From: Fibrobacterota bacterium
Lineage (GTDB): Bacteria > Fibrobacterota > Chitinivibrionia > Chitinivibrionales > FEN-1185
Direction of reading: 5' to 3'
Assembly: GCA_003165595.1 (NCBI GenBank)
Contig: PLWQ01000010.1
Span: forward strand, 1 to 64,000
Length of the DNA stretch: 64,000 nucleotides
Shown: one piece after another, positions 43,153-59,688 of the stretch
How positions within the stretch are numbered: the first letter of the stretch is position 1
How the letters are laid out: each line of letters starts with the position of its first letter
Translations under genes and position numbers: made by a program
The notes under the pieces: model-generated
Databases searched by the model: none
The model's input: the letters and a program-made list of their open reading frames with translations, nothing else
Told to the model about the DNA's origin: nothing

Positions 43153-43638
43153 CTATGCAACGCTCTTGGTAACCGTAAACTCCACCCGCCTGTTTTTAGC
43201 ATGGCAAACCAGGTCTTCCGCGCAAGCCTGAATTGCCTTGGGATCTCCGCCATGCAACCGGACACTGATCCGGGCGGGGTCGATGTGAAACGGACCATAG
43301 GAAACAAGCCAGTCGCTTGCCGCCTTGGCCCGGTCGCCGGCAAACAAGCTGTCGTTCTCGGGAGAATTTCCTTCATCCGCATAGGCGTCTATAACAAGCT
43401 GGGCGGAACCATGGACTGCCAGAAATCGGCCGACCTCATTGAGAACATCCATGGTTTCAGGGCTCAAGAGCGTGCGCGCCCGGTCGAAATATACGGGGCC
43501 GAAGGAGACATTCTTCTCGTGCGGAATTGCTTCCGCGACGGGTTTTTGAGACGAGCGTGACACAATGGATGGCGCACATCCCCAGAACGCGGCCCCGGCG
43601 CATGCGATCACAACGACAATGCGAAATTCAAAGTTCAT
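43153..43638 (-). CDS. OmpA/Pal-like lipoprotein (second in operon)
   Basis: 161 residues from the ATG at 43638 (GGGGATTTAAG upstream). Lipoprotein signal FRIVVVIACAGAAFWGC with Cys at about 21. The OmpA-C peptidoglycan-binding fold covers about 50-158: VYFDRARTLLSPETMDVLNE, QLVIDAYADEGNSPENDSLF, GDRAKAASDWLV, and a final NRRVEFTV. The canonical Pal/OmpA diaminopimelate contacts D and R are kept in part (YADEG rather than the usual HTDSxG). It is the most diverged of the three Pal-type proteins here. Confidence 0.8.
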   Translation of the reverse strand: MNFEFRIVVVIACAGAAFWGCAPSIVSRSSQKPVAEAIPHEKNVSFGPVYFDRARTLLSPETMDVLNEVGRFLAVHGSAQLVIDAYADEGNSPENDSLFAGDRAKAASDWLVSYGPFHIDPARISVRLHGGDPKAIQACAEDLVCHAKNRRVEFTVTKSVA

Positions 43639-43701
43639 CTTAAATCCCCTTCCCGCGCAAATGCGGCAGTTCAATCAAGGAATCTCAGGTCTTTAAAGAC
43701 G

Positions 43702-44271
43702 CTACTCAGCCCGGCTCAAGGGTTTCTCGGTATTTTCCAGCACGGAAAACTCATCCCGCCTGTTCTTTGCATGGCAGGCTTCGTCGGTGCATCCCGTTAT
43801 CGCGAGGCGCTCCTTGCCATACGATGTCACTTCGATGCGGCTTGCCGGGACGCCGTCGTTCACGAGAAAATCCTTTGCACTCTGTGCGCGCCTCTGTCCA
43901 AGGCCGATGTTATATTCGCTTGAACCCCGTTCATCGCAGTTTCCCGCGACCATGATCCTAAGAACAGGGTGGTCGTTCATGAACTTGCCGATTGTCGTCA
44001 GCCTGGTTTCGCCTTCCGGCTTGACGGTTGATTTGTTGAAATCAAAGTAGATGTTCTGCAACGCCTCCTTTGCCTGTTGCGCCATTTCTCCCTGAAGCTG
44101 GGCCTCTTTGAACGTCGATGAATCGTAGGGAGCGGGCGGGGAAACCGGTTTCTCCGCAACTGCCGGATGCTCCACACTCAGTTTCGTGATTTTCTTTGAG
44201 CACGACACCGCAGTCAGCGAAAGTACCGCGGTACCTGCAAGGACTACCGAAACGAGAAGATGTTTGCGCAT
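43702..44271 (-). CDS. pal: Pal-type peptidoglycan-associated lipoprotein
   Basis: 189 residues, RBS AAGGAGGAGCGT. Lipobox LTAVSC (Cys24). The OmpA-C domain (about 70-180) carries the full Pal signature: YFDFNKSTVKPEGETRL, VAGNCDERGSSEYNIGLGQR and RAQSAKDFLV. NRRDEFSV near the end is typical too. It anchors the outer membrane to peptidoglycan non-covalently. No TolB, TolA, TolQ or TolR lies nearby, so this copy belongs to the local sigma-54-type operon rather than a tol-pal cluster. It follows the receiver gene by 14 bp. A Cys pair (CTDEACHAKNR) is shared by all three Pal paralogues here. Confidence 0.88.
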   Translation of the reverse strand: MRKHLLVSVVLAGTAVLSLTAVSCSKKITKLSVEHPAVAEKPVSPPAPYDSSTFKEAQLQGEMAQQAKEALQNIYFDFNKSTVKPEGETRLTTIGKFMNDHPVLRIMVAGNCDERGSSEYNIGLGQRRAQSAKDFLVNDGVPASRIEVTSYGKERLAITGCTDEACHAKNRRDEFSVLENTEKPLSRAE

Positions 44272-44285
44272 ACGCTCCTCCTTGG

Positions 44286-44759
44286 TTAGGTATGTATAGA
44301 GTTCTTGCTTGCCGATGGTTTTGCGGTATGAGAACTACCCACTTCATTGTCCGCTCCAGGCGTGCCTGCGGAGTAGTCGTTGGTTGTTAGGGCCAGGGAA
44401 ACGGCGGCAACCAGCTCCCGTATGTTGAATGGCTTATCAAGGCAAAACAGGCTGCCGCGGTCTTTGAGTTCCTGCTGCAGCTCTTTGGACCCATATGCGG
44501 TGATCATGCCGAACGGAACCGTGACGCCTTCGGCTTTGACATGATCGATCAATTCGATGCCGGAAATGACAGGCAGATGGTGGTCGGTAATGACGAGATC
44601 GAACTGCTCTTTCATCTCGTGTGCGGTAACGATCTTCGCAAACGCATCCGCCCCGTTATCAACCGCGACAACAGTGTAGCCGTTTATCCGCAGCGTCAGA
44701 TCAATTGATTTCAGGAGGTCGCGTTCATCGTCGACTATGAGGATTCTTTTTGGTTTCAT
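44286..44759 (-). CDS. Stand-alone response-regulator receiver protein
   Basis: 157 residues. Receiver domain with acidic pair DDE (10-12), phosphorylation Asp at about 59 in DLVITDHHLPVISG, Thr in GMITAYGS and Lys in FCLDKPFN. The C-terminal 35 residues are polar and carry no output domain. It is first in the operon with two Pal lipoproteins and a binding protein, downstream of a predicted sigma-54 promoter. A phospho-sink or phosphorelay role with the adjacent kinase is plausible. Confidence 0.88.
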   Translation of the reverse strand: MKPKRILIVDDERDLLKSIDLTLRINGYTVVAVDNGADAFAKIVTAHEMKEQFDLVITDHHLPVISGIELIDHVKAEGVTVPFGMITAYGSKELQQELKDRGSLFCLDKPFNIRELVAAVSLALTTNDYSAGTPGADNEVGSSHTAKPSASKNSIHT

Positions 44760-44815: not shown

Positions 44816-44831
44816 AACAAGAATTGTGCCA
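44816..44831 (-). promoter_or_regulatory. Predicted sigma-54 promoter of receiver-Pal operon
   Basis: Minus strand TGGCAC-AATTC-TTGTT. The -24 element is perfect and spacing is right; the -12 element has TTGT where TTGC is expected. It lies about 57 bp upstream of the receiver ATG at 44759, with two palindromes 80-155 bp further upstream. Confidence 0.65.
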
Positions 44832-44908
44832 ACGTTTCAAAGTGGAGCTAACCTCCAACGCCACTTGCAGTTACAGGTGGCCGGCGTAATTCCTCATTGT
44901 CAAATGGA

Positions 44909-44922
44909 GGGACAATTGTCGC
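44909..44922. promoter_or_regulatory. Candidate activator-binding dyad (proximal)
   Basis: GGGACAATTGTCGC, with core GACAATTGTC perfectly symmetrical. It is about 80 bp upstream of the predicted sigma-54 promoter, the usual distance for enhancer-type sites. Confidence 0.55.
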
Positions 44923-44970
44923 TCTTGGACAAAGCTGTAGAGGTAATCATAGCTGGGGGTGTGGTAGTTT

Positions 44971-44988
44971 GCGGGACAAATGTCCCGC
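44971..44988. promoter_or_regulatory. Candidate activator-binding dyad (distal, perfect palindrome)
   Basis: GCGGGACAAATGTCCCGC: 8-bp arms around AA. Its minus-strand core GGGACATTTGTCCC recurs with one change at 49936-49949 and 59675-59688, both next to predicted sigma-54 promoters. Confidence 0.65.
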
Positions 44989-45067: not shown

Positions 45068-46522
45068 CTATGAAGGCGGTTGGGCGTCATCGGAAGGGGA
45101 GTCGAACTGACGTCCTCGCACAAGCCGCTTATTGAGAGCCGAACGGGTCATGCCGAGCAATTGCGCGGCAAGCGTCTGATTGCCGCTTGACCGGCGCAGG
45201 GCTTCGTCGATGAGCATCTGCTCCGCGTCCTTGAGGGCCGGCAGACACTGCCAGCGCGGAAGGTTATCTTTTGTGAACTGTTCCGCCGCCGAAGAGTCCG
45301 GGCCCGGCGATACCGGGGTCTTGTCGAGCCGATCCTTTACATAGGATACCGAAACGGCTCCGGCCCGGTCCCTGCTTAGCGCGTCAAACACCAGGTTCTT
45401 CAGCTCACGGATGTTTCCCGGGAAGCTGTAGGTCGAAAGAACTTCGTACAGTTCGGGCGGAGGAGCCACAGGATCGGTCCTGCCCAGATCACGGGTTGTC
45501 TGTTCGTAGAAGGTGTCAATAAGCAGGGGAATATCTTCCTTTCGGTCACGCAACGGCGGAATGTCGATTTGGTGACTCTGCAGCCGGAAGTACAGATCGT
45601 TTCTGAAAACGCCTTCCTTGCGCAATGCCTGCATGTCCTTGTTCGTCGCCACGATCACCCGGGCGCTGGACGTTCGCACCGAATCCGACCCGACCGGGTA
45701 ATACGTTCTGTCTTCAAGAAGGCGCAGCAGTTTCACCTGCGACTCACGCGCCAGGTCTCCTATTTCGTCAAGAAACAGGGTGCCGCCGGAAGCCTTGGCA
45801 ACGAGTCCGTCGCGGTGCGCAGCCGCGCCTGTGAACGCGCCCTTTTCATGACCGAACAGGGTGTCGCTTATCATCGCGTCATCGAGCCCGGCGATGTTGA
45901 CGGAGACATATTCGCCACCGCGGCCGCTCGCATCATGAATGATCCGGGCGATCATTTCCTTGCCGACTCCGGTCTCGCCGGTAATGAGCACCGGCATGGG
46001 CGTTTGGGCGATGGCCTCGACATATTGGAAAATTGCGGACATCTTCCTGTTCCGTGTGACGATGCGCTCGAACAACTCGGGCCGCTTGAGCCTATCGTCG
46101 AGCAGATACCGAGTGAGCCTGCTGTTCTCGTTTCGGATCTCGACAAAGTCCATCGCCCGGCGCACGCTTGTAACAAGCCTGTCCTTTTCCACCGGTTTTA
46201 CCAGGTAATCGAAAGCACCCGACCGCATGCATTCCACCGCGGTTTCCACGCTGTTGATCGCGGTGAGCATGATCACCGGCGATTCGGGAAAACCCTTCAC
46301 GATTTCCGGAAGCAATGCAGTGCCCGGCGTGCCCGGCATCATCACGTCGAGGAGCACCAGCGCAAACCGCTGTTGTACCATAAGCGAGAGAACCTCTTGG
46401 CTCCGCGAGCAGGTGGAAACCTCAAAGCCCGCAACGCGCAGGGTGATGCTCGCGCTCTTTAGGAAATTGATTTCGTCATCAACCAGCAGTATGGGCAGTG
46501 GGGGAGCAATGTGAGTTTCCAT
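45068..46522 (-). CDS. NtrC-family sigma-54-dependent response regulator
   Basis: 484 residues from the ATG at 46522, 26 bp after the kinase stop. Receiver domain (about 1-120): VDDE acidic pocket, Asp in LVLLDVMMPGTPG, Lys in YLVKPVEKD. AAA+ domain (about 165-400): Walker A GETGVGKE, the sigma-54 contact loop GAFTGA, Walker B GGTLFLDEIG, sensor FPGNIRELKN. The C-terminal Fis-type HTH (RRSSGNQTLAAQLLGMTRSA) binds DNA. When phosphorylated it should activate sigma-54 promoters. It is the obvious candidate for binding the GGGACAWWTGTCCC dyads found beside neighbouring predicted sigma-54 promoters. Confidence 0.93.
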   Translation of the reverse strand: METHIAPPLPILLVDDEINFLKSASITLRVAGFEVSTCSRSQEVLSLMVQQRFALVLLDVMMPGTPGTALLPEIVKGFPESPVIMLTAINSVETAVECMRSGAFDYLVKPVEKDRLVTSVRRAMDFVEIRNENSRLTRYLLDDRLKRPELFERIVTRNRKMSAIFQYVEAIAQTPMPVLITGETGVGKEMIARIIHDASGRGGEYVSVNIAGLDDAMISDTLFGHEKGAFTGAAAHRDGLVAKASGGTLFLDEIGDLARESQVKLLRLLEDRTYYPVGSDSVRTSSARVIVATNKDMQALRKEGVFRNDLYFRLQSHQIDIPPLRDRKEDIPLLIDTFYEQTTRDLGRTDPVAPPPELYEVLSTYSFPGNIRELKNLVFDALSRDRAGAVSVSYVKDRLDKTPVSPGPDSSAAEQFTKDNLPRWQCLPALKDAEQMLIDEALRRSSGNQTLAAQLLGMTRSALNKRLVRGRQFDSPSDDAQPPS

Positions 46523-46547: not shown

Positions 46548-48566
46548 TCAAGATACAGGAAGCAACATGGTGACGCAGGTGCCCTTGCCGGCCGCCGATT
46601 CGACAACAAGCTCGCCGCGGTGGTCCTTTATTATGCTGTACGATATTGCAAGCCCGAGGCCCGTGCCGCCCTTGTCTCTCTTGGTGGTGAAGAAGGGGTC
46701 CATTATATATTTCAAATTCTCCGGCTTGATGCCCGGTCCCTGGTCTCGTATGGCCACCGAGACTTTGTTGGTTTCCTGCAGCAACGATATGGTCACGGTT
46801 ATAGGCTTGGCGGCATCCTCGTTAGCTTCGCAAGCGTTTTCGATGAGATTGATGACGACCTGTTCGAGACGCTGGAAATTGCCCTTTACTTCGGGGACTC
46901 TTTCTTCTTGAATCACCTCGAAATGGCTTGTTGATTTTTTGATGAGGCTGCCGATAATCACCAAGGCGGCCTCGACAACGCGCCCCATGTCAACGAGCTG
47001 GTTCGGGTCGCCGGGTTCTTTGCGGGCAAAATCCTTGAGGCTCTGAACGATTTTCTTGATGCGCTGCGCTCCGTCGGTGATGCCGCTCAAAAGACTTGGA
47101 AGCTCCTCACGCATTTCCTTGTAGGAAAGTCCGGCCAGTTTGTACCCCGGATCTTGCCGGTAATGTTCGTCGAGTACCGGCCAGATATCCTTCCACATGT
47201 CCGTGAGATTCTCGCCGTTGAGGATGATGAAGTTGTTCGGATTGTTGATTTCGTGAGCTATGCCGGATACCAGAATTCCCAGGGTCGCCATCTTGTCGGT
47301 CTGGATCAGCGTGCGCTGCTGAGTCTGCGCAAGCTCCTCAGCCCTCTTTCGGGCGGTAATATCACTGCCCACACATAGAATTTCCTTTAATACCCCTGCC
47401 TCGTCGTAGATCGGCCTGATGGCCCACGCTACCCATTTCCTCTGGCCGTTCTTTGTAATCACTTCCTCTTCGTAGTAGAGGCCTCTTTCCGGTGAGCTGA
47501 GAGCCTCCTGTAGGACTGTGTGCGCCAGGAGATTCGCTGCGCCCACGGGCGTGGCGATGATGTCGGAGATAGTCTTGTCCCGTATTTCCTCGAATGCATA
47601 CCCGAACAGACGCTGCGCGTATTCGTTGAAGAAAAGCACGTTGCCCTTTTTGTCAATACGTATGATGGCGCTGTTGGCATTTTCGACGAGCTCCTGGTAT
47701 TTGCGACCGTTTGCCTCCAGCTTCTTCATGGCGGATTCGATGTGGCCGAGCATAAGATTGAAACTGCGGGCAAGCCTGCCGATTTCGTCGCGCGATGTAA
47801 TGCCGATTCGTTCGGAGTATCCCTTTCGCTCTGAAGTTATCTCCTCCGTCAGCGCGGCAAACCTATTGATGGGGCTGGTGATCATGCCGGTAAAAATGAC
47901 GATGGCTATCATGCAGAGAACCATGACGACGGCGGCAAAAATAATCCGTTCGCGGATGATGGCCGCGATTTCGCCCTTGGTCTGGGCTACGCGTTTGTTT
48001 ATGATCGCTTCAATATCGTCGGTATACCGCGCCGAGGCAACTGTCCATCCCCGCGGCCCGTACAGTTTGGCGTAGCAGAGCATCGGAAACAGCGAATCGG
48101 ATAACCCTGTTTGGTCTAGCCTCGGCCAATCGGGCTGGGAATATCCCTCTCCATTACCGCGCACCATGACGTTGACGGACTCAACGAGAGAAAGCACTTT
48201 GAGCCTTTGGGTGTCGGCTAGGTTTCCGACATACGGATGGATGAGGAGTTCGGGCGGCGTGCACGTGTCGGCAATCCAGAAATAGCCCCTGCCGTTGTCG
48301 TAGGTGACGTTCTTTATGCTCTCCAGCCTGGCTATCAGTTCTTTCCTTGTTATGGATCGCTGGCTCTGGGCGCTGATAAGCGAATAAACGAAATTGACCT
48401 GCTCCCTGATCACATTCTTGATGCGCGCGGTTTCAAACGTCCGGATTTCCGCAATGTTCTTCTCTCCTCGTTTGTAGGTTTGTTGCAGCGAAATCCATAG
48501 AATCGCAACGGCCGCCAGGAATACGAAGAGGAGAGTAAGTAGAGGAAGCTTGATGCGAAGACTCAT
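46548..48566 (-). CDS. Sensor histidine kinase (Cache-HAMP-PAS-HisKA-HATPase)
   Basis: 672 residues from the ATG at 48566; an upstream TTG (48605) lacks an RBS. Transmembrane helix 1 (LPLLTLLFVFLAAVAILWI) precedes a periplasmic single Cache domain (about 35-200: YFWIADTCTPPELLIHPYVG, PRGWTVASARY), then helix 2 (IIFAAVVMVLCMIAIVIFTG). HAMP (about 230-285), PAS (about 295-405: ANSAIIRIDKKGNVLFFNEY), HisKA-like LVSGIAHEINNPNNFIILN with the phospho-His, and HATPase motifs (NLIENACEA; DQGPGI; GTGLGLA) follow. It should phosphorylate the NtrC-type regulator encoded next. The Cache domain suggests a small-molecule signal in the periplasm. Confidence 0.92.
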   Translation of the reverse strand: MSLRIKLPLLTLLFVFLAAVAILWISLQQTYKRGEKNIAEIRTFETARIKNVIREQVNFVYSLISAQSQRSITRKELIARLESIKNVTYDNGRGYFWIADTCTPPELLIHPYVGNLADTQRLKVLSLVESVNVMVRGNGEGYSQPDWPRLDQTGLSDSLFPMLCYAKLYGPRGWTVASARYTDDIEAIINKRVAQTKGEIAAIIRERIIFAAVVMVLCMIAIVIFTGMITSPINRFAALTEEITSERKGYSERIGITSRDEIGRLARSFNLMLGHIESAMKKLEANGRKYQELVENANSAIIRIDKKGNVLFFNEYAQRLFGYAFEEIRDKTISDIIATPVGAANLLAHTVLQEALSSPERGLYYEEEVITKNGQRKWVAWAIRPIYDEAGVLKEILCVGSDITARKRAEELAQTQQRTLIQTDKMATLGILVSGIAHEINNPNNFIILNGENLTDMWKDIWPVLDEHYRQDPGYKLAGLSYKEMREELPSLLSGITDGAQRIKKIVQSLKDFARKEPGDPNQLVDMGRVVEAALVIIGSLIKKSTSHFEVIQEERVPEVKGNFQRLEQVVINLIENACEANEDAAKPITVTISLLQETNKVSVAIRDQGPGIKPENLKYIMDPFFTTKRDKGGTGLGLAISYSIIKDHRGELVVESAAGKGTCVTMLLPVS

Positions 48567-48933
48567 AGATACCGCTCTGGTTCCTTCCGTGCGAGGTGAA
48601 GACAATAGGTAGAGTCCTCCGCACGGTCGATCTTGTTCGACATGCTTCCCTTGATTGGAGCGGAGCCCCCAACATTATTAGACCTGCGGAATTGTAGCTT
48701 GGTCACCAGTGTGTACGGCTCTGCGGTGAGGTGAAATGATTTCGATTCCTGCGTCCCAAAACCTGTCTCAAATGTCTTGGCCCAACAGCAAATTTCTTCG
48801 CTCGTCAAAAGGCGGCATAACGGCCGCCTTCTGACCCAGAAGAAATATAAATTCCATCATCGCTCTTTGGACAAAGCGCGTAGGTTTTCGGTGCGCATGC
48901 AAAACAACTCTTATGCGTTTTCCCAAGAAGGCG
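48567..48933. other. Intergenic region between LRR gene and kinase
   Basis: 367 bp with no convincing gene. It contains the LRR gene's terminator. I found no -24/-12 element or GGGACA dyad here, so the kinase-regulator pair probably uses an ordinary promoter. Confidence 0.5.
48806..48830 (-). terminator. Terminator after the LRR gene
   Basis: Minus strand: AAGGCGGC, loop CGTTAT, GCCGCCTT, then TTGA. The 8-bp GC-rich stem with a short T run lies about 105 bp after the LRR stop. Confidence 0.6.
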
Positions 48934-49665
48934 TCACCGGCAAAACTGTGCCGCGGGATACTGGTCGTTCCATTTCTTGAGCCATGTCCGGATTTCAGGC
49001 GAAACGCTGCACAGGTTGTTAAAACCAAAATCCACATACACCAGATTACCCATTCTCATGATGCATGACGGCAAGGTTTGCAAGCGGTTGCGTTGCAGAT
49101 AGAGTTCGCGCAAACTGTCGAGCTCACAGAAATTTTCTGGAAGCGTGCTGAGTTTGTTTCCCCACAACTGGAGCTTCCTGAGGTTCTTCATCGACATGCA
49201 AACCGCGGGCAATGCTGTAAAGTTGTTGTAGCGCAGATCAAAAACCTCAAGCTTAATAAGGTTCTTCATACTTTCCGGAAGCGTTGCCAACCTATTGTCT
49301 CCAAGCTTCAATACCCTCAGTTCCGTCAATAGCCCGATCTCGGGCGGAAGCTGATTGAGAAAATTCCCCGAAAGAGTGAGCTCTTTGAGGGAGGTGAGTT
49401 TGCCTATGTCCGCCGGAAGGGTTCGGATCAGCGGTTCATCATAGTTTGTGTTCTTGAGATACAGTCCCACGATCCGCCCGCTGTCTATCTTGACTATTTC
49501 GTCGGGGTCTGCGTTTGTGATCTTGTTGGCATTGAGAATGGCGATTACGGCCTGCATGCCCTGCAAATAGAGCCGTTTGTAGGCGGAGTCCGCCTGAGGA
49601 AAAACAAGGGAGGGTACACAACAACAAATCAGGACCACATGAGGAATGATTGAGGATATTCGCAT
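48934..49665 (-). CDS. Exported leucine-rich-repeat protein
   Basis: 243 residues from the ATG at 49665 (AAGGAGG 8 bp upstream). Signal peptide to VFPQA at about 25. Residues about 85-220 hold six LRRs of the 23-residue ribosomal/bacterial type (SLKELTLSGNFLNQLPPEIG, ELRVLKLGDNRLATLPESMK, KLEVFDLRYNNFTALPAVC, NLRKLQLWGNKLSTLPENF, SLRELYLQRNRLQTLPSCI). It binds proteins or glycans outside the cytoplasm. A predicted sigma-54 promoter lies 108 bp upstream, divergent from the lipoprotein-HtrA operon, so it probably belongs to the local regulon. Confidence 0.88.
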   Translation of the reverse strand: MRISSIIPHVVLICCCVPSLVFPQADSAYKRLYLQGMQAVIAILNANKITNADPDEIVKIDSGRIVGLYLKNTNYDEPLIRTLPADIGKLTSLKELTLSGNFLNQLPPEIGLLTELRVLKLGDNRLATLPESMKNLIKLEVFDLRYNNFTALPAVCMSMKNLRKLQLWGNKLSTLPENFCELDSLRELYLQRNRLQTLPSCIMRMGNLVYVDFGFNNLCSVSPEIRTWLKKWNDQYPAAQFCR

Positions 49666-49772
49666 AGAAAGACCTCCTTGGAATATGCGGTGGCGGTTTC
49701 TTGGATACAAAATCTTAGAATGCTTTTTAAGGAACCTCTCAAACTGGATACCCCGCCGGCTGTTTTGCTATG

Positions 49773-49789
49773 ATGCAATGGTCATGCCA
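49773..49789 (-). promoter_or_regulatory. Predicted sigma-54 promoter of the LRR gene
   Basis: Minus strand TGGCAT-GACCA-TTGCAT: both -24 and -12 elements are perfect. The candidate dyad at 49936-49949 is about 150 bp upstream and is shared with the divergent promoter at 50012. Confidence 0.75.
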
Positions 49790-49832
49790 GGCTCTATTGT
49801 TCGCAAACTTAAGTTGGGCAGGCTTCCGATCC

Positions 49833-49903
49833 TACGGCGTGCGCATTGCAGGCTGCTCGCTGTGGCGTGTATTCGGTTGCAATCGCGGTGCTGCGGCGTT
49901 CTT
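49833..49903 (-). repeat. ATTGAAGAACC-family repeat, internally deleted copy
   Basis: Reverse complement of the family: ATTGAAGAACGCCGCAGCAC at the head joins directly to GCGATTGCAACCGAATACAC and CAGCGAGCAGCCTGCAATGC, skipping about 50 bp of the core present at 9537-9659. It lies between the divergent sigma-54-type promoters. Confidence 0.65.
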
Positions 49904-49935
49904 CAATCCTTTGTGAGGCCAATGACGGCATGTGA

Positions 49936-49959
49936 GAGACATTTGTCCCTTGAGGGACA
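49936..49959. promoter_or_regulatory. Shared activator-binding dyad between divergent sigma-54-type promoters
   Basis: GAGACATTTGTCCC (49936-49949) differs by one base from the perfect dyad at 44973-44986, followed by an extra half site GGGACA (49954-49959). It is about 150 bp from the LRR promoter and about 55 bp from the lipoprotein-HtrA promoter. Confidence 0.65.
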
Positions 49960-50011
49960 TGCGGCTACAAAGTCGGAATCGAAAAAGGTCCGCGCACCCT
50001 GTTGAGGGGGC

Positions 50012-50026
50012 TGGCATAGTTGTTGC
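50012..50026 (+). promoter_or_regulatory. Predicted sigma-54 promoter of the lipoprotein-HtrA operon
   Basis: TGGCAT-AGTTG-TTGC: perfect -24 and -12 elements, about 60 bp before the lipoprotein ATG at 50087. Confidence 0.75.
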
Positions 50027-50086
50027 GCTTTGACTGCTTGCGGATATGAAAGCGGTCAACGGTAAAGAGCTAAAAGGAGGCTTGCC

Positions 50087-50791
50087 ATGTTCCATTTCAA
50101 ATTCGTCTCTCCAGCCGCGCTTCTCGTTTGTCTCGTGGTCTTCTCGGCTTGTCCTGCCGAACAGAAATCGCCCGCGGCACAGTCCAGTGGCAAGGCCAAC
50201 GCGGGCCTTCAGGTTGACGAATCGGATTGGGCGGTCTTTATGGACGCCCCTGCGTACCACTTTGCACTTGCCAGAGAATACCTGCAAAAAGGCGACAAAT
50301 CGAAGGCGGCCGCCGAATTGAAAAGGGGAAATACATTCTTGAATTTTGAAAAGAACCGCATTTCTTTTGCGGAAAAGCAAATCGAGGCGTTATCGAATGG
50401 CATATCATCCGGTAAGGAAAAGGACCTTGCCAAGCTGGATGCCGAGACATCGACGGCGCTCAACATCGTCAACCGCAAGTATGCCATGATTCCGGTTGAA
50501 ATTGACGCGACTTCCGTTTTTGAGGATGCGTACAGGTACCATTTCGACATGGCAAAATCAAAACTGCAGGAAAACGACAGGGCCGGATCCGCTTCCGAAC
50601 TCCGGAGAGTCGCCGCATTCCTGAGGCTTAATGGCGCGTACATGGGCCACGTGGCAAATACCGAAATGGATTCGGCGGAAAATGCTTTAAAGGAAATGGC
50701 ATCAAAAGTAGAATCCGGTACCGTCAAGGACGTAAAAGAGTTGGAACAAGCGTTTGAAAAGGCGGTCTCGGTTGTTTCCAGGAAGAGATAG
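50087..50791 (+). CDS. Lipoprotein with two tandem helical repeats
   Basis: 234 residues, RBS AAAGGAGG. Lipobox VFSAC (Cys22). The mature protein is two diverged copies of one helical unit: about 53-133 (APAYHFALAREYLQKGDKSK ... AELKRGNTFL ... LNIVNRKY) and about 147-232 (AYRYHFDMAKSKLQENDRAG ... SELRRVAAFLRL ... VSVVSRKR). No family recognised. It sits 18 bp before the HtrA gene under a predicted sigma-54 promoter, so an envelope-stress role, perhaps as adaptor or sensor for the protease, is plausible but unproven. Confidence 0.8.
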   Translation: MFHFKFVSPAALLVCLVVFSACPAEQKSPAAQSSGKANAGLQVDESDWAVFMDAPAYHFALAREYLQKGDKSKAAAELKRGNTFLNFEKNRISFAEKQIEALSNGISSGKEKDLAKLDAETSTALNIVNRKYAMIPVEIDATSVFEDAYRYHFDMAKSKLQENDRAGSASELRRVAAFLRLNGAYMGHVANTEMDSAENALKEMASKVESGTVKDVKELEQAFEKAVSVVSRKR

Positions 50792-50809: not shown

Positions 50810-52381
50810 ATGAAACGCGCCTTTTCCCACAGCAGAAGCGCAAGTTTGTTTGTTGTTTGTCTATTGTCCTCCAGTCTCCTTTGTTCTCCGGGCAATTCCC
50901 AAACGCCGGTACCGGCTTCACCGCCGGCGGTGTCCGGTCCGATCGCAAAAGCAATTGGATCGGACAATTTCAAGACCATATTCGCGGATATCGCGGCGAA
51001 GATAACGCCGAGCGTAGTGTCCGTAATTCTTACCAAGATCGACACGGTCGCTTATTCCCAGAATCCGTTCTACAATTTTTTCAACGACAGCTCAATGGAC
51101 AACCCGTTTCAATTCTTTTTTGGCGCGCCACAGCAGCAGCCCCAAAACAAAAGGGGCCCGGGAGTTGAAAAACGCGAATTCCGGCAGCAGGGGCTCGGCT
51201 CGGGAGTTATCGTCTCGGAGGATGGGTACATCCTTACAAACTACCACGTGGTTTCCGGCGCGAGCGAGATCCGGGTGAAACTGTCCGACGATCGCGCGTA
51301 TGAGGCAAAAATTGTCGGCACGGACTCGCTGTCAGATGTCGCGGTTATCAAGATCAAGGAAAAGGTGCACCATCTGCCCGTGGCCGAGCTTGGCGACGCC
51401 TCACAACTGCGGCCCGGAGATTGGGTGCTCGCAATAGGTAATCCTTTCAGCCTCACCTCCACCGTGACGCTGGGAATCGTGTCGGCTCTCGGACGCGAAG
51501 TAGGCAACCCGAACCTGTATCAGAACTACATCCAGACCGACGCGGCAATCAATCCGGGCAATTCAGGCGGTGCGCTTGTCAACATTGACGGAAAGGTGAT
51601 AGGCATCAATGCCATGATCTACACCCAGACCGGCGGATTCATGGGAATCGGATTCGCCATTCCCATTAACATGGCGCAAAAGGTGATGGACGACATAATC
51701 CATAAAGGGAAGGTGACGCGCGGGTGGATCGGCGTTTCTATTCAGAACATCAACGAGGCGACGCGCGAGGCCCTCAACCTCGGGGAACACAAAGGTGTCT
51801 TGGTGAGCGACGTTTACAAGAATCAGCCTGCTTTCGAGGCGGGAATCAAGCGCGGGGACGTCATCATTTCGATAGGCGGAAAGAATGTTGAGAATTCGAA
51901 TCAGCTCCGCAACTCCGTGGCCGACCTCGCGCCGGGCAAGGGCGTGCCGGTGGTTATCATCCGCAACGGCCGGGAACAGACGATAACACTAACGCCGAGG
52001 GAGCGCAATGAGAAGGAAATCGCCGCGCTCAACCGGGGCGAGGCGGGAAAGAACGAGAGTGCCGCCTCCGTAGTGAAGGAACAGCGCCTTGGATTTTCGG
52101 TCGCGAACCTCACCTCGGAACTCAGGAAGAAATACGGAATCGGCGAAAACATACGCGGTGTGGTGATCGAGACCGTGGACCAATTGCTGGCCGACGCCCG
52201 TGCCGGTCTCAAGGAAGGGGACGTCATCGAGCAGGTCAAGGTGAAGAACAGCGACTTCCAGACAGTCGTATCGGTAAATGAATTCGACGCGATCGTCAAG
52301 AGTGTCAAGAAGGACGACTCGGTGATGCTCCTTGTCGCGCGGGGAGAAACCACATTCTTCACTGCGTTCACGCTCAGGTGA
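50810..52381 (+). CDS. Periplasmic serine protease, Do/HtrA (DegP-like)
   Basis: 523 residues, RBS AAGGAGG. Signal peptide to about 30. Trypsin-like domain with the full triad: His146 in LTNYHVV, Asp176 in SLSDVAVI and Ser252 in NPGNSGGALV. Two PDZ domains follow (about 295-390: RGWIGVSIQNI, GVLVSDVYKNQPAFEAGIK then RGDVIIS; and about 425-520: RLGFSVANLT, ARAGLKEGDVIEQV). Loop LA (about 80-118) is Phe/Gln-rich. Degrades or refolds damaged envelope proteins. Cotranscribed with the tandem-repeat lipoprotein under a predicted sigma-54 promoter, which differs from the sigma-E/Cpx control known in enterobacteria. Confidence 0.95.
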   Translation: MKRAFSHSRSASLFVVCLLSSSLLCSPGNSQTPVPASPPAVSGPIAKAIGSDNFKTIFADIAAKITPSVVSVILTKIDTVAYSQNPFYNFFNDSSMDNPFQFFFGAPQQQPQNKRGPGVEKREFRQQGLGSGVIVSEDGYILTNYHVVSGASEIRVKLSDDRAYEAKIVGTDSLSDVAVIKIKEKVHHLPVAELGDASQLRPGDWVLAIGNPFSLTSTVTLGIVSALGREVGNPNLYQNYIQTDAAINPGNSGGALVNIDGKVIGINAMIYTQTGGFMGIGFAIPINMAQKVMDDIIHKGKVTRGWIGVSIQNINEATREALNLGEHKGVLVSDVYKNQPAFEAGIKRGDVIISIGGKNVENSNQLRNSVADLAPGKGVPVVIIRNGREQTITLTPRERNEKEIAALNRGEAGKNESAASVVKEQRLGFSVANLTSELRKKYGIGENIRGVVIETVDQLLADARAGLKEGDVIEQVKVKNSDFQTVVSVNEFDAIVKSVKKDDSVMLLVARGETTFFTAFTLR

Positions 52382-52701: not shown

Positions 52702-52717
52702 TGGCACAGGTATTGCA
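52702..52717 (+). promoter_or_regulatory. Predicted sigma-54 promoter of the aquaporin/ATPase/PPK2 operon
   Basis: TGGCAC-AGGTA-TTGCA: perfect -24/-12. The first start codon (leader peptide) is at 52863, leaving a leader of about 130 nt. No GGGACA dyad is visible. Instead TGTGAACAA occurs twice (52665-52673, 52687-52695), which could mark a different activator. Confidence 0.7.
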
Positions 52718-58168: not shown

Positions 58169-58705
58169 CTACTTCGCAAGGGCCTTCCATTCGTCGCGTC
58201 TGTTCTTGCCGCGGCAAATGTCGTCCGACACGGGACAGTTGGGAACGGCCGGCCGTTCTTTGCCGTAGGAAGTAATTTCCAGCCTGTCGCCCTTTATTCC
58301 ATACGTGACGAGATACTCCTTTGAGGCACGCGCGCGGCGTTCTCCGAGCCCCATATTGTACTCGTCTGAGCCGATTTCGTCGGCATTGCCTTCAATCAAG
58401 ATACGAACGTCGGGATTTTGCTGAAGAAAGGACCCTATTTTGCCAAGTGAAGCGATTGCGACATCAGACAATGAGTAATCGTTGAATTTGAAGTAAATGG
58501 GCACAAATATGCCTTTCATTTTGGCGTTGAGGGCTACCGTTTCGAATGAGTCGCTCAGTGCTTGAACTGAAGGCTCAGGAGCCTTTGAAGCGCTCGCCTG
58601 CGGACCTGCATTCGCTTCAACCTTTACAACCTTCTTGTTGCAGCCGACCGAGAATACCAGAGCTGCGCACAGCACTGCGCTATAAACGACGATTCTACGA
58701 AACAT
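58169..58705 (-). CDS. Pal-type OmpA lipoprotein (third paralogue)
   Basis: 178 residues, RBS GGGAGGCC before the ATG. Lipobox VFSVGC (Cys22). The OmpA-C domain includes YFKFNDYSLSDVAIASLGKI, IEGNADEIGSDEYNMGLGER and RARASKEYLVTYGIKG, plus the Cys-containing end CPVSDDICRGKNRRDEW shared with the 43702 protein. Compared with true Pal (GHCDERGTxEYN) it has NADEIGSDEYN. It lies 92 bp after the YajG-like gene and probably shares its predicted sigma-54 promoter. Confidence 0.85.
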   Translation of the reverse strand: MFRRIVVYSAVLCAALVFSVGCNKKVVKVEANAGPQASASKAPEPSVQALSDSFETVALNAKMKGIFVPIYFKFNDYSLSDVAIASLGKIGSFLQQNPDVRILIEGNADEIGSDEYNMGLGERRARASKEYLVTYGIKGDRLEITSYGKERPAVPNCPVSDDICRGKNRRDEWKALAK

Positions 58706-58797: not shown

Positions 58798-59496
58798 CTA
58801 CAGGCCGTTCAAACTCTGTAGGGTCTCGATGAGTGCATTCCCCAGCGCGCTGCGAATCAGCTTCCCGGAATTTCGGCCCGAATTGAAAACGGCGCGGGAT
58901 CTTTCACTGTCAATGTCAAAACTGCGCACGACCTGCGACGTGCGTGCATCGACCAACCCCACTCTCAATTGCACGGAAGCCGCAATGGTTTGATAGAAGA
59001 AATGCGGCGTTTCTTTTAGAGAAAAGCCCAGAATGGAAACACGGATGAGATATGTTGCGGAATTGCGATCCAGGGCGGCGGCCCCTTTCTTTTCGAGAAA
59101 CGTTTGCAGCGACTGCTCGACTGCCGCCGCGGGCAGCGGATGGCAAATTATCGCCCTCGGATGACCCAGCCGGGTGTGCACATAGCCCACCAGCCCGGAA
59201 TCGGCCCGGCCGCGAACGGTGTCGCTTACCACGTCGACAAAGAACTTCGCGCCGGCCTTCACATCAGGAAAACTGTCGTAATTTGCTATGGTGGGATCAA
59301 CGGTCTGTTGATCCGCCTGGGCGGGAAGCCACGCGGAGGCGACAGCGAAAAGAATGAATCCCACAGCGACCGCATGCCTCGGAGCTTGCTCCGGGGCTAG
59401 CGAGCGACTATAAGTATGTCTTTTTTCCAGAGGGATGGAAGATACCTCGCAGCTTGCTGCGAGGTTCTTCAATGCGAAATTTCCCCGTGTGTTCAT
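58798..59496 (-). CDS. YajG-like exported protein with repeat-interrupted signal peptide
   Basis: 232 residues from the ATG at 59496 (AGGGAG upstream). The frame to 59733 crosses promoter DNA. A hydrophobic export helix (VAVGFILFAVASAWLPAQA) begins only at residue 42, because an ATTGAAGAACC-family repeat is inserted in frame after codon 8. The mature part (YDSFPDVKAGAKFFVDVVSD, HPLPAAAVEQSLQTFLEKKG, RVGLVDARTSQVVRSFDIDS) has the fold order of YajG/LpoB-like envelope proteins; confidence in that family is low. Preceded by a predicted sigma-54 promoter and two GGGACA dyads, followed by a Pal gene. Confidence 0.65.
   Translation of the reverse strand: MNTRGNFALKNLAASCEVSSIPLEKRHTYSRSLAPEQAPRHAVAVGFILFAVASAWLPAQADQQTVDPTIANYDSFPDVKAGAKFFVDVVSDTVRGRADSGLVGYVHTRLGHPRAIICHPLPAAAVEQSLQTFLEKKGAAALDRNSATYLIRVSILGFSLKETPHFFYQTIAASVQLRVGLVDARTSQVVRSFDIDSERSRAVFNSGRNSGKLIRSALGNALIETLQSLNGL
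59377..59473 (-). repeat. ATTGAAGAACC-family repeat inside a coding region
   Basis: Minus strand: ATTGAAGAACCTCGCAGC, hairpin CCTCGCAGCAAGCTGCGAGG, then CTTCCATCCCTCTGGAAAA as at 9660-9680, and CCCCGGAGCAAGCTCCGAGG as the closing hairpin. It encodes residues about 9-40 of the YajG-like protein. Confidence 0.7.
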
Positions 59497-59566: not shown

Positions 59567-59583
59567 ATGCAACAAATATGCCA
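59567..59583 (-). promoter_or_regulatory. Predicted sigma-54 promoter of the YajG-like/Pal operon
   Basis: Minus strand TGGCAT-ATTTG-TTGCAT: perfect -24 and -12 elements, about 70 bp upstream of the ATG at 59496. Confidence 0.75.
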
Positions 59584-59643: not shown

Positions 59644-59688
59644 AGGACAAAATTCCCCTACGAGGCGGTATGCTGGGACTTTTGTCCC
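59644..59688. promoter_or_regulatory. Pair of candidate activator-binding dyads
   Basis: GGGACTTTTGTCCC at 59675-59688 (one base from the shared consensus, flanked by CT..AG to make an 18-bp palindrome) and a weaker AGGACAAAATTCCC at 59644-59657. They lie 60-105 bp upstream of the predicted sigma-54 promoter. Confidence 0.6.

Follow-up and report, generated by a model that had tools for sequence, protein, structure and literature searches.

Divergent sigma-54 promoters with a candidate shared activator dyad between an LRR gene and an HtrA operon in a Fibrobacterota bacterium

The gap between the gene of a secreted LRR protein and an HtrA operon in this Fibrobacterota genome is probably a two-way sigma-54 control region, in which a dyad read by the adjacent NtrC-type regulator would serve as activator site, and which would form part of a small, local envelope-maintenance regulon. 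The window that was analyzed comprises the first 64,000 nucleotides of contig PLWQ01000010.1, referred to below as C16 where positions outside the window are given. The promoters, the dyads, their spacing and clustering, and the pairing of dyads with promoters in a congener are read directly from the DNA.

The divergent promoters and the region between them

The features of the LRR/HtrA intergenic region and its flanking genes are as follows.

48934-49665, minus strand: secreted LRR protein with a signal-peptide-like N terminus and LRR_8/LRR_4 repeats
49775-49789, minus strand: sigma-54 promoter TGGCATGACCATTGC of the LRR gene, exact pattern match
49828-49907, plus strand: copy of a dispersed repeat (~95-bp element) with an internal gap of ~10-12 nt relative to the consensus
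49936-49949, no strand: candidate activator dyad GAGACATTTGTCCC, one mismatch to the 14-mer GGGACAWWTGTCCC
49944-49959, no strand: inverted repeat TGTCCC-TTGA-GGGACA overlapping the dyad, found exactly once in the window
50012-50026, plus strand: sigma-54 promoter TGGCATAGTTGTTGC of the periplasmic-protein/HtrA operon, exact pattern match
50087-50791, plus strand: all-helical periplasmic protein without a Pfam or NCBIfam family; this copy carries FSAC
50810-52381, plus strand: HtrA/DegP-family (Do) serine protease

The original prediction placed a perfect TGGCAT-N5-TTGC site before each of two divergent genes. Both sites are indeed exact, at 49775-49789 (minus) and 50012-50026 (plus), with GG at -24 and GC at -12 in the exact spacing of TGGCAY-N5-TTGC, and the LRR gene and the 50087/HtrA operon are divergent, with a good Shine-Dalgarno sequence at both. 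For the LRR gene, transcription is predicted to start at ~49763, giving a leader of ~98 nt before the ATG at 49665; for the 50087 gene, the predicted start is ~50038, with a leader of ~49 nt before the ATG at 50087. The Shine-Dalgarno sequences are strong in both cases. The window holds four TGGCAY-N5-TTGC sites where shuffles predict 0.5, and every shuffle stayed below four. Genome-wide, TGGCAT-N5-TTGC occurs 35 times versus 7 times for the reversed control pattern, whereas TGGCAC-N5-TTGC, with 25 sites versus 20 in the control, is barely above it. With a weight matrix built by hand on the known consensus, the minus promoter scores 17.3 (maximum 18.3) and is the stronger match, the plus promoter scoring 14.2; our conclusions rest on the exact patterns. 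The genome encodes rpoN once (Sigma54_DBD, 204 bits, over the cut-off).

Functionless matches to the sigma-54 consensus are known in general, and the region contains a sigma-70-like match, so that both sites could be chance occurrences with sigma-70-type starts driving the two genes. We regard this as very improbable, since the match in question (plus strand, 49745-49774) is the only one, lies within shuffle expectation, and is badly placed for both genes, and since promoter–dyad pairs were zero in the controls described below.

From 60 sites, 0.07 divergent sigma-54 pairs within 400 bp would be expected. Two more divergent TGGCAC-N5-TTGC pairs, 220-300 bp apart and without this dyad, are present in the genome (C21:70803-71037 and C37:341539-341851) and probably answer to other activators. 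A further perfect sigma-54 site, TGGCACAGGTATTGC at 52702-52716 (plus strand), lies 3' of htrA, ahead of genes for an aquaporin-like protein and a P-type ATPase, with no dyad nearby.

A deleted dispersed repeat had also been noted between the promoters, and it is real: the copy at 49828-49907 is gapped relative to the consensus, and its whole length falls between the dyad and the minus promoter. The element is intergenic and ~95 bp long (TGAATCCC...TTCTTCAAT), with 44 matches in the genome, the window copy included; 29 other copies were aligned. It often stands beside further palindromic modules (CCCCGCAGCTTGCTGCGGGG). The proposal that the repeat altered the promoter spacing holds insofar as the copy sits inside the minus-side spacing, but the insert of 80-83 bp leaves a spacing near one used by other members of the regulon, so that a functional effect of the repeat is hypothetical. 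Without the insert, the minus-side spacing would be 72-75 bp, compared with 71 bp on the plus side, which suggests that the two spacings were nearly equal before the repeat arrived. No relative with an empty repeat site was found.

The dyad as the motif of a local regulon

The predicted dyad between the two promoters is present; GACATTTGTCCC at 49938-49949 forms the core of the 14-bp palindrome GAGACATTTGTCCC, and the TGTCCC-TTGA-GGGACA repeat provides a second half-site, GGGACA (at 49954), beside it. Its description as the only such dyad was wrong. GACATTTGTCCC recurs exactly at 44984-44973 (minus strand), and near-identical palindromes occur at 44909, 59675, and C16:67752. The first reading is thereby corrected: judged by its copies, the 49936 dyad is a candidate regulon motif, the signature of a regulon, and not a local oddity. 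Dyads of the GGGACAWWTGTCCC type precede three sigma-54 sites on this contig besides the 49936 pair, as listed here together with the genes behind the first two.

43153-44759, minus strand: receiver/Pal-like target operon, with a single receiver domain (44286-44759) and OmpA/Pal-like proteins (43702-44271 and 43153-43674)
44817-44831, minus strand: sigma-54 promoter TGGCACAATTCTTGT before the receiver/OmpA-like operon
44909-44922, no strand: proximal dyad GGGACAATTGTCGC, 86 bp from the 44831 promoter
44973-44986, no strand: distal dyad GGGACAAATGTCCC, 150 bp from the 44831 promoter
58798-59496 and 58169-58705: secreted protein and OmpA/Pal-like protein, respectively, behind the 59583 promoter
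59569-59583, minus strand: sigma-54 promoter TGGCATATTTGTTGC before these two genes
59644-59657, no strand: weaker second dyad site, 69 bp from the 59583 promoter
59675-59688, no strand: dyad GGGACTTTTGTCCC, 100 bp from the 59583 promoter
C16:67752, a little beyond the window: dyad GGGACAATTGTCCC, upstream of the sigma-54 site TGGCGTGCTAGTTGC at ~C16:67673 (minus strand)

Searching the 5.39-Mb genome with the gapped pattern dyad-N62..92-TGGCRY-N5-TTGY gave three places (C16:44817-44920, 49938-50026, and 67659-67763), and a longer gap, dyad-N130..160-promoter, gave two (44817-44984 and 49775-49947). All five matches are on this contig, and the reversed-pattern controls of both searches yielded zero matches genome-wide. 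Judged by these patterns, no dyad in the genome other than that at 49936 has a promoter on both sides. Palindromes matching GGGACAWWTGTCCC with at most one mismatch number 12 in the genome, five of them on this contig, and no such dyad appeared in 20 simulated windows of the same dinucleotide make-up. A good sigma-54 site lies 70-160 bp away from 5/5 of these near-perfect dyads on this contig and from 0/7 elsewhere (1 in 792), for a motif that was defined partly from the window sites after these had been seen, so that C16:67752, the congener sites, and the reversed-pattern controls are the only independent tests.

The center of the dyad lies 71 bp from GG(-24) of the plus promoter and 155 bp from that of the minus promoter. 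In the other pairs of the regulon, including those of the congener, the corresponding distances are 69, 77, 86, 87, and 100 bp, and 144, 145, and 150 bp. Both intergenic spacings thus fall in or beside the two distance classes of the other dyads (69-100 and 144-150 bp), and both arms use distances that the system uses elsewhere. The claim of two divergent sigma-54 promoters with one candidate activator dyad between them is supported by these spacing classes and by the two-sided pairing: one dyad lies within looping distance of both promoters, and the same motif stands before other targets. We infer that a single hexamer may serve both promoters.

Alternatively, both promoters could depend on sigma-54 while the dyad is used on the HtrA side only, the LRR promoter having another activator or being a passenger with a spacing stretched by the repeat. 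The repeat does lie within the 155-bp minus spacing, the plus side is favored by its 71-bp spacing and by the additional half-site at 49954, and LRR paralogues lack sigma-54 sites, a point that also counts against the shared-site reading. Against this stand the stronger match of the minus promoter (17.3 versus 14.2), the spacings of 144-150 bp at three other regulon dyads, and the lack of a clear alternative palindrome near the minus promoter, and we consider plus-side use alone unlikely. A site at C8:26445 was rejected as a second divergent LRR example, because the sigma-54 site there points toward a FlgJ-like gene, and the copy of the LRR gene has none.

The motif GGGACAWWTGTC (at most one mismatch) occurs 100 times in this genome versus 34 times for the reversed control, with sigma-54 pairing on this contig only, and 60 versus 41 times in the congener.

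The candidate regulator, its kinase, and their relatives

Next to the LRR gene lie a kinase and a regulator, separated from it by a hairpin.

45068-46519, minus strand: NtrC-type sigma-54 response regulator, candidate owner of the dyad, with receiver, AAA+, GAFTGA, and Fis-type HTH
46548-48605, minus strand: sensor histidine kinase with dCache, HAMP, PAS, HisKA, and HATPase domains
48804-48835, minus strand: strong hairpin between the LRR and kinase genes (-31.8 kcal/mol for 61 nt, z -6.8)

The 45068-46519 regulator combines the parts of an NtrC-type two-component system, namely, a receiver, an AAA+ domain with a Walker A motif and GAFTGA at residue 227, a Fis-type HTH, and a neighboring kinase. 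The promoter-linked dyads are all found within 23 kb around it. Most likely, on this evidence, the 49936 dyad is read by the adjacent kinase/regulator pair, which appears to switch on other envelope operons as well. The genome has at least nine strong NtrC-type matches, this regulator included, and some dyads lie far from it and lack sigma-54 sites, so that another NtrC-type protein might be the reader. That possibility seems to us quite unlikely: the promoter-linked dyads cluster around this regulator, the congener dyads flank its orthologue, and the two closest paralogues in the genome (~48-50% identical) have recognition helices (QSTLWRR and QSTLSRR) that differ from its TRSALNKRL.

In the congener (G001), the orthologous regulator is 72% identical, and its recognition helix, TRSALNKRL, is the same. 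The gene order there is LolA-like, LolC-like, LolD-like, 61779-like, kinase, regulator, OmpA-like, receiver, and Pal-like. Dyads precede both operons flanking the orthologous kinase and NtrC-type regulator: two lie 77 and 144 bp before the sigma-54 site TGGCACATGCATTGC that heads the first gene run, and one lies 145 bp before the sigma-54-like site TGGCACGGTTATTGG of the receiver/Pal operon. The latter promoter has TTGG in place of TTGC, and the strict gapped dyad–promoter patterns gave no match in this genome; both observations count against the preferred reading of an adjacent regulator with a shared motif. Synteny in relatives had been proposed as a check: the locus of the congener contains no orthologue of the LRR gene and none of the 50087 protein, so that the divergent pair as such is known from a single genome, which also counts against the preferred reading. 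The kinase comes directly after the 61779-like gene in the congener, whereas ~13 kb (48.7-61.7 kb) separate the two here. The LRR gene and the HtrA operon both fall in this block, as does the 59583 promoter, and the block may have been gained here or lost in the congener.

Among members of the order with ~50% identity, several keep the order kinase, regulator, sigma-54 site, and receiver without the dyad. The regulators of G006, G022, and G028 (~50% identity) have a very similar recognition helix, and no such dyad was found for them, which again counts against the preferred reading. For relatives of the regulator from other phyla, a search of 1.26 Mb of surrounding sequence gave no near-perfect dyad. 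A gapped-pattern match in G002 was set aside, since it belongs to a different activator (36% identical). At G002:C456:1711-1797 (L338), a similar GACAAAAGTC dyad comes after the gene of a different sigma-54 activator, and the sigma-54 site there stands in front of the gene of a secreted protein.

In the mechanism that we propose, sigma-54 RNA polymerase would wait in closed form at both TGGCAT-N5-TTGC promoters of the 420-bp gap until the kinase, which has a Cache sensor domain, phosphorylates the regulator. The phosphorylated regulator would bind the GAGACATTTGTCCC dyad, and its AAA+ ring would open both promoters through DNA looping, so that the LRR gene would be induced to the left, and the genes of the helical periplasmic protein and HtrA to the right. 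The same regulator and dyad may drive at least three further envelope operons, those for receiver/Pal-like proteins, for secreted/Pal-like proteins, and for LolA/LolC/LolD-like export, so that the site would belong to a compact envelope-maintenance regulon whose members cluster locally. The parts of the scheme that we infer are binding by this regulator, looping, simultaneous use of the one site, and the stress signal. The hairpin at 48804-48835 is terminator-like, although its T run is short, and suggests that few LRR transcripts extend past it; autoregulation of the regulator through the LRR promoter is accordingly uncertain.

More tentatively, and with somewhat less than even confidence, we suggest that this is an undescribed two-component sigma-54 regulon in which one Cache-domain kinase is coupled to lipoprotein export of the LolA/LolC/LolD-like kind, to Pal-like proteins, and to HtrA, and that the 13-kb block that separates the export operon from the kinase gene recruited the dyad to new promoters here, one dyad serving the LRR surface protein and HtrA together.

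Comparison with known systems and the target genes

In the envelope-stress response of Escherichia coli and Salmonella, zraSR and zraP have divergent sigma-54 promoters that are both driven by ZraR (PMC4987338). The present system resembles it in having a kinase and an NtrC-type regulator, divergent sigma-54 promoters, and, probably, a periplasmic envelope-stress function. It appears to differ in that the regulator operon is one divergent arm there, whereas the arms here are the LRR gene and the HtrA operon, with the kinase 330 bp beyond the LRR arm and behind the strong hairpin. Identity with ZraSR was rejected (the 45068-46519 regulator reaches 273 bits against a cut-off of 760 for the ZraR model), and no homologue of ZraP was found here. 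The hyc and hyp operons are likewise divergent and share sites. One sigma-54 activator with one binding motif, FhlA, controls them in enterobacteria (PMC4987338). FhlA is, however, a one-component activator that responds to formate and acts on hydrogenase genes. The orange-protein operons of Desulfovibrio vulgaris are reportedly divergent sigma-54 operons too. For type III secretion in that species, a common activator motif has been predicted in the shared upstream region of divergent sigma-54 operons (PMC4641369), with other activators, other cargo, and in another phylum. The general survey of Francke et al. 2011 (PMC3162934) treats sigma-54 control of envelope and lipoprotein functions, a theme that the LRR/HtrA regulon fits, and its passages on that theme mention neither this regulon nor the dyad. 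Divergent sigma-54 promoters with a shared activator are thus already known (zraP/zraSR), and the type of control is well supported but ordinary, in a group that is little studied. What is offered for this group is a testable sigma-54 envelope regulon with a candidate activator, a binding motif, and four target regions, in which an LRR protein of obscure role is tied to HtrA and outer-membrane lipoprotein handling.

The targets of the regulon comprise LolA_like, an FtsX/MacB permease, a LolD-like ATPase, three OmpA/Pal-like proteins, a receiver domain, HtrA, and the LRR protein, a set that points to outer-membrane and lipoprotein maintenance. The assignment of the protease as HtrA stands, with 476 bits to the Do-family model TIGR02037 (cut-off 416). 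Orthologues of HtrA in two relatives have sigma-54-like sites upstream, directly in G002 (L331 1722) and at ~450 bp in G001 (L330 3514); the dyad was looked for at HtrA orthologues and was not found. The 50087 product had been called a lipoprotein, which is doubtful: the lipobox Cys of this copy (FSAC) is absent in homologues, most of those that show the site having FSAY, FSIY, or FSAD, with Tyr or Asp for Cys, and the lipobox is thus not conserved. Its predicted structure is all-helical (pLDDT 75), with no match in the PDB at E < 0.001. Members of the 50087 family also lie behind sigma-54 sites elsewhere, at L169 2992-4772 (G000:C14, in this genome), L042 (G002), and L043 (G031). Those in C14 and G002 follow an SPFH/stomatin-like gene, and that of G031 lies directly behind the sigma-54 site.
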